This document shows, in pieces, positions 8,871-48,190 of a stretch of DNA of 64,000 bases. The notes beneath the pieces are model-generated. The model did not search any database. It was not told where the DNA came from and was given only the letters and a program-made list of their open reading frames with translations. The stretch's first letter is position 1. Each line of letters opens with the position of its first letter. This stretch comes from Orenia marismortui DSM 5156 (GTDB lineage Bacteria > Bacillota > Halanaerobiia > Halobacteroidales > Halobacteroidaceae), in the NCBI RefSeq assembly GCF_000379025.1, contig NZ_KB900617.1, positions 431,547 to 495,546 of the forward strand, written 5' to 3'. Made by a program: the position numbers and the translations under genes.

Positions 8871-10439
8871 TTATTTACTTAATTCTACTTCAATTACTTT
8901 AGCCATAGCCTTAGCAATTTCTGTATTATCTTTATAGCCACCAAAACTTTCAGATCCTATACCTACAGCAGATAGAGGGATTGCAGTCGCAGAGTGGGCA
9001 TAAGTAGTCCATTGTAAGTTTGCCCTTTCAGAAAGAATATGAGTTGTAGCTATTGCTACTGGGTCATATCCACCATAAGTACTTTTAGAAACTCGCGAAT
9101 TACTATCAGCTATATCCATAGTATCTTCAATCTTAGCTCTTTCTTCTTTACTTAAGTTATCTAGACCTAAATTCTCATCGATATAGTTAAAGAATTTACT
9201 TCTATTTCCATCATACTTTCCTTCTCCATAATTTAATACATCAGCAACAGAAACCTTAGCATTTTCTAATTCATCTACATGTAAGAAGTAATTTTTAGCA
9301 AATCCTAAACCAACACCACCAGTTTCATGATCACCCGCTACTACAATTAAAGTCTCTTCTGGATGCTTTTTATAAAATTCATAAGCCTTGTTAATTGCTC
9401 TATCAAAAGCTAAGGTATCATGTATCATCCCTACTGGATCATTAGCATGGGCAGCATGATCAATCCTTCCACCCTCAATCATCATAAAGAATCCATTATT
9501 ATATTTACTTAAGACATCGATACCTTTTTCAGTCATTTCAGCCAAGCTTGGTACTTTATTGACATCTCTATCAATCTCATAAGGCATATGGCTATAAGTA
9601 AAGAAAGCAGCTACCTTCTTTCTTCCTTCTGGCACAAAGTTTCTAAAACTTCTGGTAGCATCTTCTGAAACAAAAACATTATATCCCTTAGCAACAAATT
9701 CTCTTGCTATATCTCTATTATCTTTTCTTTTAGATTTTAATTCCCCATCTTTAGCTACAAAATGTCTATATCCTCCACCAGCTAAAAACTCAACACCACT
9801 ATCCACATATTGGGCAGCAATTTCATTTTCTTGATTACGATCAGAAATATGAGTAGCAAAGCTTGCTGGAGTAGCATGGGTTAATCTAGTAGTAGAAACT
9901 AACCCTGTTGCCATTCCTTTTTCTTTAGCTGCTTCTGTAAGAGTTTTCACATTAGTCCCATCAGGCAATTGAGAGATCATACCATTATTAGTCTTATATC
10001 CAGCAGCTAATGCTGTTCCTGCTGCTGCTGAATCAGTTACTAAACTATCTGCAGAACGAGTAGTATTAATACCTGCTACTGGGAATTGATTCATTACTAA
10101 CTTTTCATTACTTTTATTTTGATCTTGTAAGAAGTATTCTGCCACCTGACGTTGAGCCGGTCCTAAACCATCACCAATGAAATAAAATACATATTTAGGT
10201 GCATCTAAATCAGCTCTTAACTTTAAAACATCACCCACATGGATTACACTAGGGTTTTTAATATTATTTGTTTTGATAAGAGTCTCTACACTGACATCTG
10301 TCTTAGCTGCAATTTTTGCTAAAGTATCTCCTGCTTTGACAGTATATGTACTTGCAGCAAAAGCCATAGTCGTCATAGTTAACATTAAAGATAACACTAA
10401 TATAAATCCTATACTTTTTGATAATAAATTCTTTTTCAA
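8871..10439 (-). CDS. Secreted LysM-alkaline phosphatase, copy 2
   Basis: 522 residues if translation starts at TTG 10437-10439. That codon has AAGGAGGAG seven bases upstream and opens a normal signal peptide (LKKN...TMAFA). The longer frame to 10508 has no ribosome site and would bury the signal peptide. After cleavage comes one LysM domain (about 31-74, YTVKAGDTLAKIAAKTDVS), a peptidoglycan-binding module, then the PhoA-type domain with FIGDGLG, TDSAAAGTALAAG (nucleophile Ser), MMIEGGRIDHAAH and VAGDHETGG. LysM should hold the enzyme at the cell wall, unlike copy 1. It sits between an EAL gene and yibF. Confidence 0.92.
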   Translation of the reverse strand: MKKNLLSKSIGFILVLSLMLTMTTMAFAASTYTVKAGDTLAKIAAKTDVSVETLIKTNNIKNPSVIHVGDVLKLRADLDAPKYVFYFIGDGLGPAQRQVAEYFLQDQNKSNEKLVMNQFPVAGINTTRSADSLVTDSAAAGTALAAGYKTNNGMISQLPDGTNVKTLTEAAKEKGMATGLVSTTRLTHATPASFATHISDRNQENEIAAQYVDSGVEFLAGGGYRHFVAKDGELKSKRKDNRDIAREFVAKGYNVFVSEDATRSFRNFVPEGRKKVAAFFTYSHMPYEIDRDVNKVPSLAEMTEKGIDVLSKYNNGFFMMIEGGRIDHAAHANDPVGMIHDTLAFDRAINKAYEFYKKHPEETLIVVAGDHETGGVGLGFAKNYFLHVDELENAKVSVADVLNYGEGKYDGNRSKFFNYIDENLGLDNLSKEERAKIEDTMDIADSNSRVSKSTYGGYDPVAIATTHILSERANLQWTTYAHSATAIPLSAVGIGSESFGGYKDNTEIAKAMAKVIEVELSK

Positions 10440-10513
10440 CTTTCTTCTCCTCCTTATTTTGTTATAGATTTGTGCGTAAAACCTGATGGGCTTGCCCTTA
10501 GGATACAAGCACC

Positions 10514-10546
10514 AACAATAGACTAATTTGATATTAGTTTATTGTT
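10514..10546 (-). promoter_or_regulatory. Hairpin in the leader of the LysM-alkaline phosphatase gene
   Basis: AACAATAGACTAAT pairs with ATTAGTTTATTGTT around a TTGAT loop, one wobble or mismatch in 14. It stands 75 bp upstream of the TTG start. Between it and the start is another small stem (GGGC/GCCC near 10488-10497). Role unknown; it could be part of a structured leader. Confidence 0.5.
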
Positions 10547-10624
10547 AATAAAAACCATACATATTTACTTTTAATTTATGATAAACTACTATTAATTAAG
10601 GTAAATCTAAAAACTGAATATATA

Positions 10625-10900
10625 GAGTTGTGGTAGGAATTAGTAGCGATAACCAAGCCCCTCTATCACGTAAAATATTCAAGGTACACAGAAATCCTTA
10701 ATCGTCAGTACCGTAGGGCGTACGGGATTGGATTCATCACGAAGAGTTTTTAATAAAAACTCGTAGGTAAGCCTTCGGAGATACTGTAAGACCTAGTTTC
10801 TTACTTAATACTGATATTAAGCAGAAATAGGCTCGTATCTAGGAACAAGGAATCCACGCAGGCTTGCCTCCTGGAGCGTCAAATAGTTCTTTTAAGGGAT
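10625..10900. ncRNA. G+C-richer structured intergenic block, candidate RNA (strand unknown)
   Basis: This part of the 570-bp gap between the EAL-gene terminator and the phosphatase is clearly richer in G+C than surrounding intergenic DNA and is stopped in all frames checked. Visible stems: CCGTA/TACGG (10711-10725), GAGTTTTT/AAAAACTC (10744-10762), AGATAC/GTATCT (10779-10784 with 10835-10840) enclosing CTTAATA/TATTAAG (10804-10821), and CGC..GCG around CAGG/CCTG (10857-10878). It matches no riboswitch consensus I know. It may be an independent RNA, the long leader of the phosphatase gene, or a mobile-element remnant. Confidence 0.45.
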
Positions 10901-11010
10901 TCAATTGAATATTTTATCTTTTTTCTTGATCCCAAGGTAATTATTGCAAATTAATATTACAATCATTTTAAAACAATATGAATTTTTTGTTAACTTTTTA
11001 GCTTATAACC

Positions 11011-11050
11011 AAAAAGAGGAGCAGGTGATTAATCACCTGCTCCTCTTTTT
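11011..11050 (-). terminator. Terminator of the EAL-CBS gene (40-bp perfect palindrome)
   Basis: Arms 11011-11030 and 11031-11050 are exact complements (AAAAAGAGGAGCAGGTGATT), with terminal A5/T5, 3 bp beyond the stop codon. Symmetric, so it could work in both directions. Confidence 0.9.
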
Positions 11051-11052
11051 AA

Positions 11053-12288
11053 CTACATTACTATTTGTTTAGAAAAGTTATTAAAAGCATCATTTTCTAT
11101 CTCTTGATTCAAATTTAGTTGCTGAAAAAAACTTAAAATATCTTTAATAGAAACTGTCCCAAAATATTTATTATCTTGTGTTACAATTACACAATCATAG
11201 AAATCTCTTGAATTCCTTTTAGTTACTTTCTCTAATACTTCTTCAATTGAAGTATTAAAATCTACTACTAAAGTTTTGGCTTTAAGCATAGAATCAATAC
11301 CTTTAAATTGATCTATCTCAGTATCTAAAAACTGATTTCTAGTTACTAGACCAACTATTTTTTCATCTTCTAAAACTGCTAAACTGAACAATTTTGGATC
11401 TTCTTTAAACGTTTTTTTTACTCTATTAACCTTGCTATCAATATTGACTGTAAGACTTTTACTAGCAATATTTCCAATAATATATTTAGGACTAAGAAAA
11501 TTCTTTTCATTATTCTTTGCTAAGATATAATCAGAAATATCTAATTTTTTTGGAATTGATGCATCTGGTCTAGCAATTAGATAACCTTGTCCATAATCAA
11601 CACCCATTTGGATTAAAATATCAAGTTCAGCTACCGTTTCAATCCCTTCAGCAATTACTTTAGAATTAATCTTTTTAGCAAAACGCATAAAAGTTTCTAA
11701 TAAAGCCTGCTTAACTGGATCTTGATCAATATTCATAACCAATGAACGATCTAATTTAATATAATTATATGAGATAGACACTATAGATTGTAATCCTGAA
11801 TAACCTGCTCCTGTATCATCAATAGCAATTTGATATCCCTGATCTGTATAATGATTTAAGGCTAACCTAAACCCTTGAAAATCATCTATACATGTCGTCT
11901 CAGTCAGTTCAATTACTATATCATTTTGAGAAATTGAGATATTATTAATAATTTCTTTGGTAGTCCCAGCTTTAAAATTACTATCATAAATAACTCCAGG
12001 ATCAATATTTAAAAACAGCTTATTGCCTTCTTCTATATTCTGGGTATTTAAAAGAGCCTTTTCTCTACAAAGCTGTTCTAAATTAAATAGCATATTATGT
12101 TTTTTAGCTAAAGAAAATAATTTCAAAGGGCTCTCTAAAGAACTTCCCTTAGGACCTCTACTTAAAGCTTCATACCCTAAAATTTCGGCGGTTTTTAAGT
12201 TGATAATAGGTTGGAAAAGAGTTCTTATACTCTTATTATCAATTATGTCTTTTAAATCTTTTAACATAGATTCTTCACTTAATCCCAT
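11053..12288 (-). CDS. EAL-CBS cyclic-di-GMP phosphodiesterase
   Basis: 411 residues. EAL domain at about 10-245 with EALSRGP, LFLNIDPGVIY, IVIELTETT, AIDDTGAGYSGLQS, KLDRSL and AEGIETVAEL, the full set of metal and substrate residues, so active hydrolysis of c-di-GMP to pGpG is likely. A CBS pair (about 265-400) ends the protein; the GGDEF domain of its paralogue at 5684-7462 is missing, by loss here or gain there. ATG 12286-12288 is chosen because GGGAGG lies seven bases upstream; the frame could extend to a TTG embedded in that site. First gene of the second tandem module. Confidence 0.92.
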   Translation of the reverse strand: MGLSEESMLKDLKDIIDNKSIRTLFQPIINLKTAEILGYEALSRGPKGSSLESPLKLFSLAKKHNMLFNLEQLCREKALLNTQNIEEGNKLFLNIDPGVIYDSNFKAGTTKEIINNISISQNDIVIELTETTCIDDFQGFRLALNHYTDQGYQIAIDDTGAGYSGLQSIVSISYNYIKLDRSLVMNIDQDPVKQALLETFMRFAKKINSKVIAEGIETVAELDILIQMGVDYGQGYLIARPDASIPKKLDISDYILAKNNEKNFLSPKYIIGNIASKSLTVNIDSKVNRVKKTFKEDPKLFSLAVLEDEKIVGLVTRNQFLDTEIDQFKGIDSMLKAKTLVVDFNTSIEEVLEKVTKRNSRDFYDCVIVTQDNKYFGTVSIKDILSFFQQLNLNQEIENDAFNNFSKQIVM

Positions 12289-12489
12289 GCTCTTTCCTCC
12301 CAATCAATATTATTGAATTTCACTTTAAATATTTTTATTTTTCACTAAAGATACTTAGATTAATTAATTATTTGCTGTTTTCATACAAATTATTTCATAT
12401 TATTGTTAAATTTATATTACAATTTTATTAACAGTAAATTAAATATACTCAGATTTTATGATATAAAATTATATTTATTTTATATCTAT

Positions 12490-27250: not shown

Positions 27251-27554
27251 GATTTCACCTCCATTACTTTTTAAAACTCAAATAATAGTCCAAGCTTGCT
27301 AGTAAATAAATTTTAGTAAGTTAATAATTCAAACTACTACTTTCTAGTTAAATATATATTTTAACTTAATAGAATAAATTATTAACTTTATACTTTCCAC
27401 CATTAATTATATTAGAATAATATTACAAATGATTTAAATTTATATTAACTTTTGTTAATAAGCCCATTATTAACCATTAAATAGTCTTGATTGATATAAA
27501 ACATTAAAGAATTATAATAAAGTAGGACCAGCCTCACGGCTGGGACCCCTTGTC

Positions 27555-27588
27555 AAACTGTACGTACGGTTTTCCCGTATACAGCTTT
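27555..27588 (-). other. Group II intron domain V
   Basis: A 34-nt hairpin, the standard length: AGC catalytic triad near the 5' side, GAAA tetraloop and a two-base CG bulge on the 3' side. All catalytic hallmarks are intact, so the ribozyme may still be active. Confidence 0.9.
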
Positions 27589-27661
27589 CGGTTATTGGTG
27601 CTCCTTATCAGAGAGTAAGTCTTCGACTCTATGTTACCATAGATGTATATTTTACCCTTAA

Positions 27662-28825: not shown

Positions 28826-29586
28826 CTATCCTAACTTCACTACTTACTAGTTCTTCCTGTCTCACCTTAATATCTTAATCCCTATATTCATAGCACTCCT
28901 GAGCACGTCTCTAAGCTCTCACCAATCGCACCTCTCAGTTTACCATTACTTAGGTTATGGTGTTCTCTAGGTTATCCATACTTTACAGTTATGATTTCCT
29001 GTTTGTAATTCTACTAGAACCCACTATAGTACTAGTGTTTAAACCACTCAAAATTAAGATATCATTAGTAATCAAATCTTAAACTTCAATAACCTAGATA
29101 TCCTTCGCTATAATCAACTTTCGTTGATTTTTTTTCTCACTACTATGATATCTTCTGAACTCTAATATATCATCACTCTGGCTTTCCTGTTGGAGTTATA
29201 CCATCACTTATCTCTATAGATTTCTATAAAGAATTATATTAGAGATTCCCTCGGTCAATTACGTAAACCCTACAATCATTCCGACCCTAATCACACCTAG
29301 TTTTCTAACATGGGCACTTCCAGTTACACGTATTTACCAGCGCTACCTGTCTCTCCTTTGTACAGAGCCCCAAGCTAACATTGGACTTCCCCGTTTTTAT
29401 GGCGGGTCGCCAAAGCTAAATGCCACCTCTGGTTCACATATTGTTCCGGACTGATTGCTCATCTCAAACTCTTCAGATTCTACCTCACGGTAGACACCCT
29501 ACTACTGTTGATTTCACACACCGTACTGGCGAAAACAGCATGGATAGGATTTTCACCTACTGTTTACTAAATCTACGAGGCACACA

Positions 29587-46702: not shown

Positions 46703-48190
46703 CTAATCAAACAAAGTAATAAAAGCCTCTATTATCTTGGGATCAAAAAATGTACCTGCTTTATCCTTTATTTCTTTTAATACAAATTCTTTAGAAATAT
46801 CATTCTGATAATCATAACAATTATAATGACTACCTAGTATATAAGCAGTCTTATAAGTCAAGGCATAATAAATATCTAAAACATGAGCAATACGAGATAA
46901 AAGAGGAATTCTTTCTCCCTTTAATCCTTCTGGATATCCACTACCATCCCAATTCTCATGATGATATAATATATATTCTGAAATTGAATTTAGATAAGTA
47001 AAATTTCTCGAAATATGATAACCTAGGATAGAATGTTCTTTCACTTTTCTTTGCTCTTTAGATGTCAATATTTCTTCTTTATTAGCTATATCTTCTGTTA
47101 AATTTAAAATTCCTATATCATAAAATTCAATTAATAAGGATAGCTTTTCTAAATCATTCTGGCATAAATTCAACTTACGCCCTAGTCTTACAGCCATATC
47201 TTTCATACTTTCTATATAAGAGATCCTTTGATAGTCGGTTTCAGACAACTTATTAATTAGAGCATTTAATAAAAAATTATCTGATGAGTTTTTAATTTGT
47301 GATTTATTTTCATACATTTTTTTACCTGCTACCTTAAATATATCTTCTATAGATTTTATCCCTTTTTCAAATTCATATTTAGTAGAAATCCCCAAAGATA
47401 TACTAGGGGGAATAGGTTTTAAATTTGACTTTTGGCATAGATCTTTAATTCTTCTGACAACATGATCTGCTCCTTTATCATCAGTTTGAGGTAGAATAAT
47501 ACAAAATTCATCACCACCCCAACGCACTACAATATCAGAGCTGCGAGTCGATTTATTTAATATATCTGCTACCTCTATTAATAATTTATCACCCATTTGA
47601 TGTCCAAAGATATCATTTGTCATTTTTAAACCATTTATATCCCCCATTATTAGGCTCAGGGGATAATTACTTTCTACATCTAATTTTTTGATAGTTTCTT
47701 CATAATAATTACGATTATAAAGACCAGTTGTTGTATCATGAAAGGTAAGATAGTTTATTTCTTCTTGAACTTGCTTTTTTTGGGTTATATCATGAATTAT
47801 TGAATATAATAGTTTCTTACTTTTAGTCTTTATAAGACTAGCATAAACCTCTACATCTCTTATATCTCCATTAGCCAATCTATGTTTAAAATAAAAATGA
47901 TTTTTTTCTTCATCCTCTACCTTTCTTATTTTTGCCAATAATTTTTGGAAGGATAAAGTATTTATATCCGTTAAATTTTTCTTTAAAATTTCTCTTTTAC
48001 TATAGCCATAATAAGATAGTGCAGCAGAATTAACATCTATAATATCACCATTTTTAGGATCAGCTAAAATAATAACTGAATAATTATCTTCAAATATATT
48101 TTTATAATAACTTAGATAATTTCGATTTTGATTTATCTGAAATATAGTATAAATCAGAAAAATAACCAGTAGTAATATAACTAATGACAT
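46703..48190 (-). CDS. Membrane PAS-GGDEF-HD domain signalling protein
   Basis: 495 residues from ATG 48188-48190 (AAAAGGAG six bases upstream); the frame extends to 48220 without a ribosome site. One membrane helix (about 3-20), PAS domain (about 30-140, VNSAALSYYGYSKREIL), GGDEF domain (145-310) with intact WGGDEFCIIL, so a likely diguanylate cyclase, and a C-terminal HD-GYP-like domain. The HD-GYP has GSGYPEGLKGERIP and HHENWDGSGYP but YDIG where HDIGK is expected, losing the metal-binding His, so the phosphodiesterase is probably inactive. Preceded by a tandem RNA-like repeat. Confidence 0.92.
   Translation of the reverse strand: MSLVILLLVIFLIYTIFQINQNRNYLSYYKNIFEDNYSVIILADPKNGDIIDVNSAALSYYGYSKREILKKNLTDINTLSFQKLLAKIRKVEDEEKNHFYFKHRLANGDIRDVEVYASLIKTKSKKLLYSIIHDITQKKQVQEEINYLTFHDTTTGLYNRNYYEETIKKLDVESNYPLSLIMGDINGLKMTNDIFGHQMGDKLLIEVADILNKSTRSSDIVVRWGGDEFCIILPQTDDKGADHVVRRIKDLCQKSNLKPIPPSISLGISTKYEFEKGIKSIEDIFKVAGKKMYENKSQIKNSSDNFLLNALINKLSETDYQRISYIESMKDMAVRLGRKLNLCQNDLEKLSLLIEFYDIGILNLTEDIANKEEILTSKEQRKVKEHSILGYHISRNFTYLNSISEYILYHHENWDGSGYPEGLKGERIPLLSRIAHVLDIYYALTYKTAYILGSHYNCYDYQNDISKEFVLKEIKDKAGTFFDPKIIEAFITLFD

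Follow-up and report, generated by a model that had tools for sequence, protein, structure and literature searches.

The 64,000-nt stretch of the Orenia marismortui DSM 5156 genome analysed here (the window; part of contig NZ_KB900617.1) raises the question of what an unusually G+C-rich block at 10625–10900 represents. The initial annotation had described this block as richer in G+C than the A+T-rich intergenic DNA and as having no open frame, and both observations hold. Its G+C content is 41.3%, as against 31.1% for the whole window and 26.3% outside the open reading frames (ORFs) of at least 100 aa; 5 of the 3957 wholly intergenic 276-nt segments of the window are as G+C-rich (their starts lie between 10623 and 29136), and the ORF list of the window has no ORF of at least 30 aa in the block. 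The genes on its two sides encode an alkaline phosphatase with LysM (8874–10439) and an EAL protein with CBS (11056–12303). We found that the block makes up most of a 417-nt mobile element on the + strand (10466–10882); the block itself is real, and its left border had been placed too far inwards. By its sequence, this element has two ends, multiple copies, an empty site, a covarying omegaRNA scaffold and a covarying 5′ module. We consider it probable (roughly 0.8) that it is a non-autonomous IS200/IS605 element of the PATE type that has entered the leader of a phosphatase gene, 3′ of TTAT, and whose RNA provides a guide for TnpB while TnpA and TnpB are supplied in trans.

The borders of the element are defined by its copies and by the empty site. 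The O. marismortui genome contains five copies including that in the window, the other four being 78–90% identical to it and matching over about 280 nt, and matches were found in 13 of the 41 genomes searched (its own and those of relatives, other genera among them), several of them partial. In the named genome collection, eight stretches were found by a pattern scan, six from Natroniella acetigena and two from Halonatronum saccharophilum. In an alignment of 13 copies, TTAT (10462–10465, + strand, in the window) directly precedes the element in 11, and the other two rows have no recognisable left end; the copies have in common the right end GCGTCAA or a sequence near it, and the flanks outside are unrelated. 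In the proposed model, TTAT would also be the TnpB transposon-associated motif (TAM). The left end folds into a hairpin (10472–10512, + strand) with the outer stem GTGC/GCAC and an inner stem around GGGCTTGCCC, likewise seen in the tnpB-bearing loci L025, L107, L108 and L036 (L and G numbers are our handles for loci and genomes); the right-end hairpin TCCACGCAGGCTTGCCTCCTGGA (10853–10875, + strand), which is also helix 6 of the scaffold described below, has GGCTTGCC in common with the left end.

In two other genomes of the genus (G001 and G002), the phosphatase and EAL genes adjoin without the element between them, and alignment with the window, its two flanks joined, gives CTCCTCCTTAT..CTTAT followed by sequence similar to the right flank in the window. 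Because of this alignment, the insertion is placed 3′ of TTAT, without target duplication, the joint being ambiguous by 1–2 nt. The insertion point is a few bases upstream of the ribosome-binding site of the phosphatase gene; the element now lies, antisense, within the probable 5′ leader of that gene. That the element controls the phosphatase gene in cis, as a regulatory leader (one of the initial guesses) or as a riboswitch, would be consistent with its position between the ribosome-binding site (about 10447–10455, by eye) and a possible − strand promoter (10993–10965). However, its structure reads on the + strand, antisense to the gene, the same element occurs at unrelated sites and is missing upstream of the same gene in G001 and G002, and no Rfam riboswitch match was found, which makes this explanation very improbable.

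The element has subterminal hairpins at both ends in common with autonomous elements, a fixed short target and no tnpA or tnpB gene, as is typical of PATEs: no ORF of at least 30 aa lies wholly within 10509–10943, and tblastn with six TnpA/TnpB proteins found none in L001. Judged by its ends, the TTAT target and the empty site, it is a non-autonomous IS200/IS605 element of this type. Three copies in G007 (L042, L054 and L060) are near-identical but have different flanks, so they appear to have moved recently; a Y1 transposase acting in trans would be the putative agent. Autonomous relatives are found in L107 (G006) and L108 (G003), in which a small ORF is accompanied by the genes for a Y1 TnpA (137 aa) and a TnpB (377–380 aa; Pfam), whereas L025, in the O. 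marismortui genome itself, is a tnpB-only element of about 1.7 kb. All three start with TTAT-AGATTTT, share the hairpin around GGGCTTGC and finish in a similar tail with the GTCAA end; the left end, omegaRNA and right end flank tnpA and tnpB in L107 and L108 and tnpB in L025. The element in the window has both of these ends, with no gene between them.

The 3′ part of the element (10709–10882, + strand) is, by homology and covariation, a TnpB guide-RNA (omegaRNA or reRNA) scaffold together with the right end. Covariance model R2 matches it with an E-value of 2.5e-33, its single match in the window, and has matches in 25 of the 59 genomes of the class. The scaffold was aligned over 25 sequences, 14 from gene-less elements and 11 from behind tnpB, with 33 named pairs. 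These pairs are 91.5% paired, as against 37–50% in slid controls, and have 88 double-change cells, as against 21.8 in shuffles (0 of 500 shuffles reached this number); the 14 gene-less copies alone are 97.6% paired, with 16 double-change cells against 3.2 in shuffles (again 0 of 500). Helices 1, 2, 3 and 6 are 98–99% paired and helices 4 and 5 are 77% and 86% paired. The long-range AGATAC/GTATCT pairing that had been noticed at the outset proved to be helix 3, which closes the inner arm (10780–10839, + strand): GATAC at 10780–10784 pairs with GTATC at 10835–10839, is 98.4% paired in the 25 sequences and has changes on both sides in three of its five pairs, with the variants GAAAC/GTTTC, GAACT/GGTTC and GAGAA/TTCTC. 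Folds of the single sequence are weakly better than shuffles on the + strand (z −1.87; 8 of 200 shuffles equally good) and give z −0.93 on the − strand, so the case for structure is one of covariation and not of energy. Several sequences were left out before counting: L043 from alignment A2 (extra insert), L049 (insert), L036, L037, L088 and L101 (shorter scaffold class), L043, L105 and L111 from alignment A4 (inserts) and L064 also from alignment A7 (insert); identical sequences were dropped.

The scaffold thus has a conserved structure and is homologous to the RNA behind tnpB; by sequence logic, its 3′ end would coincide with the right-end border, with the flank as the guide and the TAM on the left. 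The flank directly 3′ of the conserved end GCGTCAA (10883–10902, + strand; ATAGTTCTTTTAAGGGATTC) would be that guide, and its sole exact match in the genome is itself. The window, with TTAT on the left and ATAGTTCTTTTAAGGG on the right, the latter having no other exact match in the genome, fits this guide-plus-TAM logic; binding of the scaffold RNA by TnpB and guided cleavage remain putative. A domesticated guide RNA that acts in trans on another host gene might also be expected to be stable at a gene leader and to consist of a lone scaffold with its own flank as the guide. We rejected this possibility as highly unlikely: the 20-nt flank exactly matches only itself, two further sites with three mismatches compare with one for a control pattern, and the insertion is missing in two congeners.

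Upstream of the scaffold, the element carries a separate 5′ RNA module (10614–10689, + strand; model R3, E-value 3.2e-15), the structure of which is again supported by covariation. In the alignment, stem P1 pairs GAATAT (10616–10621) with ATATTC (10675–10680), stem P2 pairs GTGGTAG (10630–10636) with CTATCAC (10663–10669), and a possible pseudoknot of 3 bp, all on the + strand, joins CCU in the loop to AGG behind P1. Over 20 aligned members, P1, P2 and the pseudoknot are 96.9% paired and have 50 double-change cells, as compared with 15.6 in shuffles (0 of 500). Of the five measures, two are within the range of shuffles, namely the number of pairs with a double change (68 of 500) and further pair types (298 of 500). 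P2 has double changes in all seven pairs and P1 covaries in one, whereas the pseudoknot hardly varies and is only a candidate. G.U cells outnumber A.C cells in both the module (17 against 6) and the scaffold (33 against 15), and therefore an RNA from the + strand is favoured. In the window, model R3 has one further, chance-level match (47327–47382, E-value 0.88). Model R1 finds the module in 11 of the 59 genomes of the class, matches with E-values of 1e-4 to 1e-2 having been accepted only after reading of the sequence, and among 398 genomes of the phylum model R3 finds it in 9, of which four (G165, G225, G350 and G371) are outside the class. The module was not found in any of 17 tnpA/tnpB loci searched with R3, some of which overlap.

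These covarying stems also bear on the idea that the element is a decayed PATE whose ends still move in trans while its omegaRNA and module are inactive, with structure retained solely in the form of hairpins in single-stranded DNA that serve the transposase. Y1 elements are generally known to need hairpins at both ends, copies of the element contain nested insertions, and no intact tnpA of the same lineage was found in the O. marismortui genome, all of which would suit such decay. We nevertheless consider it unlikely, since internal helices far from the ends covary (scaffold helices 1–3 and 5 and module P2), G.U exceeds A.C on the + strand, and tnpB elements that have identical kinds of ends lack the module, so that the transposase does not need it. 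The initial annotation had suggested a novel non-coding RNA or, alternatively, the relic of a mobile element. On our preferred reading both descriptions apply to a single object, namely a non-autonomous IS200/IS605 element with a TnpB-type guide scaffold encoded in it. The term relic is doubtful, because several G007 copies are near-identical with unrelated flanks and the stems are kept by compensatory changes.

Comparison with Rfam gave no known RNA, in agreement with the earlier impression that the block fits no riboswitch or housekeeping RNA; what was recognised is a transposon end in its 3′ part. None of the 4227 families of Rfam 15 reaches the gathering cut-off in the block, and most of the sub-threshold matches in one search are chance matches to a terminator palindrome at 11011–11050. 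In 20 related loci, likewise, no family reaches the cut-off over the module or scaffold, the matches above the cut-off being tRNAs and a fluoride riboswitch; L209 has a weak match (27.9 bits, cut-off 88) to a haloarchaeal sense overlapping transcript.

The module is not confined to one kind of scaffold. It is followed by a scaffold of the window type also in L191 (G225; R2 E-value 2.4e-13), by the tail of the L038 lineage of TnpB in L133, L134 and L189 (up to 91% identity over 93 nt, E-value 5e-27) and, more weakly, by the tail of the L040 lineage in L131, L132 and L174 (73–75% over 49–58 nt); for the link of L131 and L174 to L040, shuffled queries gave 4 matches from 280 at the same limit. 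Seven of the 14 queries, the 3′ halves of L190, L196, L136, L173, L209, L176 and L177, had no match among five tnpB tails. In gene-less elements, the module precedes at least two, and probably three, distinct omegaRNA scaffolds. The module-bearing elements themselves yielded neither tnpA nor tnpB in overlapping sets of 32 and 28 loci, five control loci being positive, in a scan with six proteins and short flanks (801–1001 nt in L173–L177; contig ends in L188 and L200) that a distant tnpB could escape; near L064, at a distance of about 500 nt, lies a fragment of tnpB. It is quite possible, if slightly doubtful, that the module represents a conserved class of RNA not described before, one that is a mark of gene-less IS200/IS605 elements in several classes of the phylum and has been repeatedly combined with different TnpB scaffolds. 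Such elements would be built guide-RNA transcription units and not deletion leftovers, and the module would do the same job whichever TnpB lineage is involved, be it processing, protection, read-through or the hijacking of TnpA/TnpB.

In the mechanism that we propose, the element would be transcribed rightward from its own promoter into one untranslated RNA consisting of the 5′ module, the scaffold and the flank guide. A possible extended −10 promoter (TGATAAACT; 10579–10587, + strand) was recognised by eye, relatives having TGATATACT or TGGTATAAT at this place. A Y1 transposase would act on the element ends in trans, and a TnpB encoded elsewhere would bind the scaffold and cut the excised (empty) TTAT-guide site, after which repair from the sister copy would restore the element. 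The module would most likely protect or process the 5′ end or aid transcription read-through, replacing the tnpB message of autonomous elements. The best candidate partner in the O. marismortui genome appears to be the TnpB of L025, which has an R2 match of 113 bits behind it.

Several observations weigh against this mechanism. The omegaRNA of L025, the closest with an intact tnpB in the same genome, is clearly diverged from that in the window; the intact IS200-type tnpA of this genome (L032) is from a different IS605 lineage and the second copy of this type is broken, so present-day mobilization there is a putative step. A consensus promoter scan gave no + strand promoter at the element, the module is degenerate in one copy of the same genome (L005, E-value 0.006) and truncated in L044, and transcription, TnpB binding and cleavage are all deduced from nucleotide sequence.

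A nested hairpin repeat (CACGAAGAGTTTTT..AAAAACTCGTAG; 10738–10766, no strand assigned) is inserted in the element in all five O. marismortui copies and is missing there in the aligned copies of G003, G004 and G007. Such repeats (CACGAAG-stem-loop-stem-CTCGTAGG) are also scattered alone (L006, L008, L009, L010, L012, L016, L047, L050, L057, L062 and L066), that in L006 interrupting a Y1 tnpA; their stem sequences vary while ACGAA and CGTAGG are mostly kept, and they are REP-like. A 168-aa Y1 transposase in L034 (1450–1956; C1:1069287-1069682) looks RAYT-like and is possibly linked to them. In front of the module, the gene-less elements of the L040 type (L131, L132 and L174–L176) have an additional conserved stretch, ACAAGG..CCCCTTGT, and a fluoride riboswitch lies beside the element of G225 (L191, 1173–1263). 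Elsewhere in the window, the palindrome at 11011–11050, between the EAL gene and the element, is perfect, has A and T runs and is probably a two-way terminator, although it is missing from the output of the terminator scan. The second stretch of high G+C content outside long ORFs is at 28826–29419 (37.2%), and Rfam matches include a SAM riboswitch (2443–2548, − strand, 101 bits) and a group II intron (27517–27589, − strand, 46.9 bits, cut-off 40).

Other identities were tried and rejected. An origin from a phage or plasmid found no match in phage or plasmid collections, nor did three patterns match in viral contigs. Intron-bearing elements are known as IStrons, and the element has no group I or group II intron match. 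An rRNA-type boxA before the module remained an idea only: boxA-like sequences are present there in L196 (CTTTGAAAACTG) and in L188 and L190 (TTGAAAACTG), the leader of the O. marismortui 16S gene having TCTTTGAAAACTAAA, but the window has only TCTAAAAACTGAA and most copies from Halanaerobiia have no boxA.

Standalone omegaRNAs and PATEs with IscB or TnpB, their guide RNA encoded away from the nuclease gene, are said to have been described by Altae-Tran in 2021 and by Meers in 2023; we know of none among them with a conserved extra module common to different scaffolds. At the level of titles and abstract openings, no description of the module was found in the literature covered, most subscription papers being outside it, so that it may have been published. 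The accessible text of three papers (PMC10711439, PMC11870625 and PMC12558985) has nothing on gene-less elements of this kind. As far as its accessible text goes, a study of Halanaerobium hydrogeniformans describes one PATE-like sequence of 271 nt beside 23 IS200/IS605 elements (PMC7290912). Like the element in the window, it lacks tnpA and tnpB genes and has a hairpin at the left end as well as the right end together with the sequence that follows tnpB; however, it is described as a single ends-only copy that includes the final 58 nt of the tnpB ORF, whereas the element in the window belongs to a family of several copies, has a distinct, conserved 5′ module and contains no recognisable tnpB ORF. 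That text names the parts ends and hairpins, not guide RNA (PMC7290912). In the ISDra2 model, as given in the accessible part of its description, the guide matches the empty donor site beside the TAM and cutting leads to repair from the element-bearing copy (PMC8612924). There, as here, the TAM is the target left of the element, but it is TTGAT in ISDra2 and, by the model, TTAT here, and the ISDra2 RNA derives from the end of the tnpB gene and the right end (PMC8612924), whereas the element in the window lacks tnpB and has a different module in front of its scaffold.

If the proposed mechanism is correct, gene-less elements would be parasites of their relatives' transposase as well as of their RNA-guided nuclease and would have a dedicated RNA architecture for it. 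It would then become testable how a guide RNA arises when there is no tnpB message and whether a single 5′ module works for unrelated TnpB lineages, and the covariance model offers a means of finding such elements by their RNA rather than by their genes.
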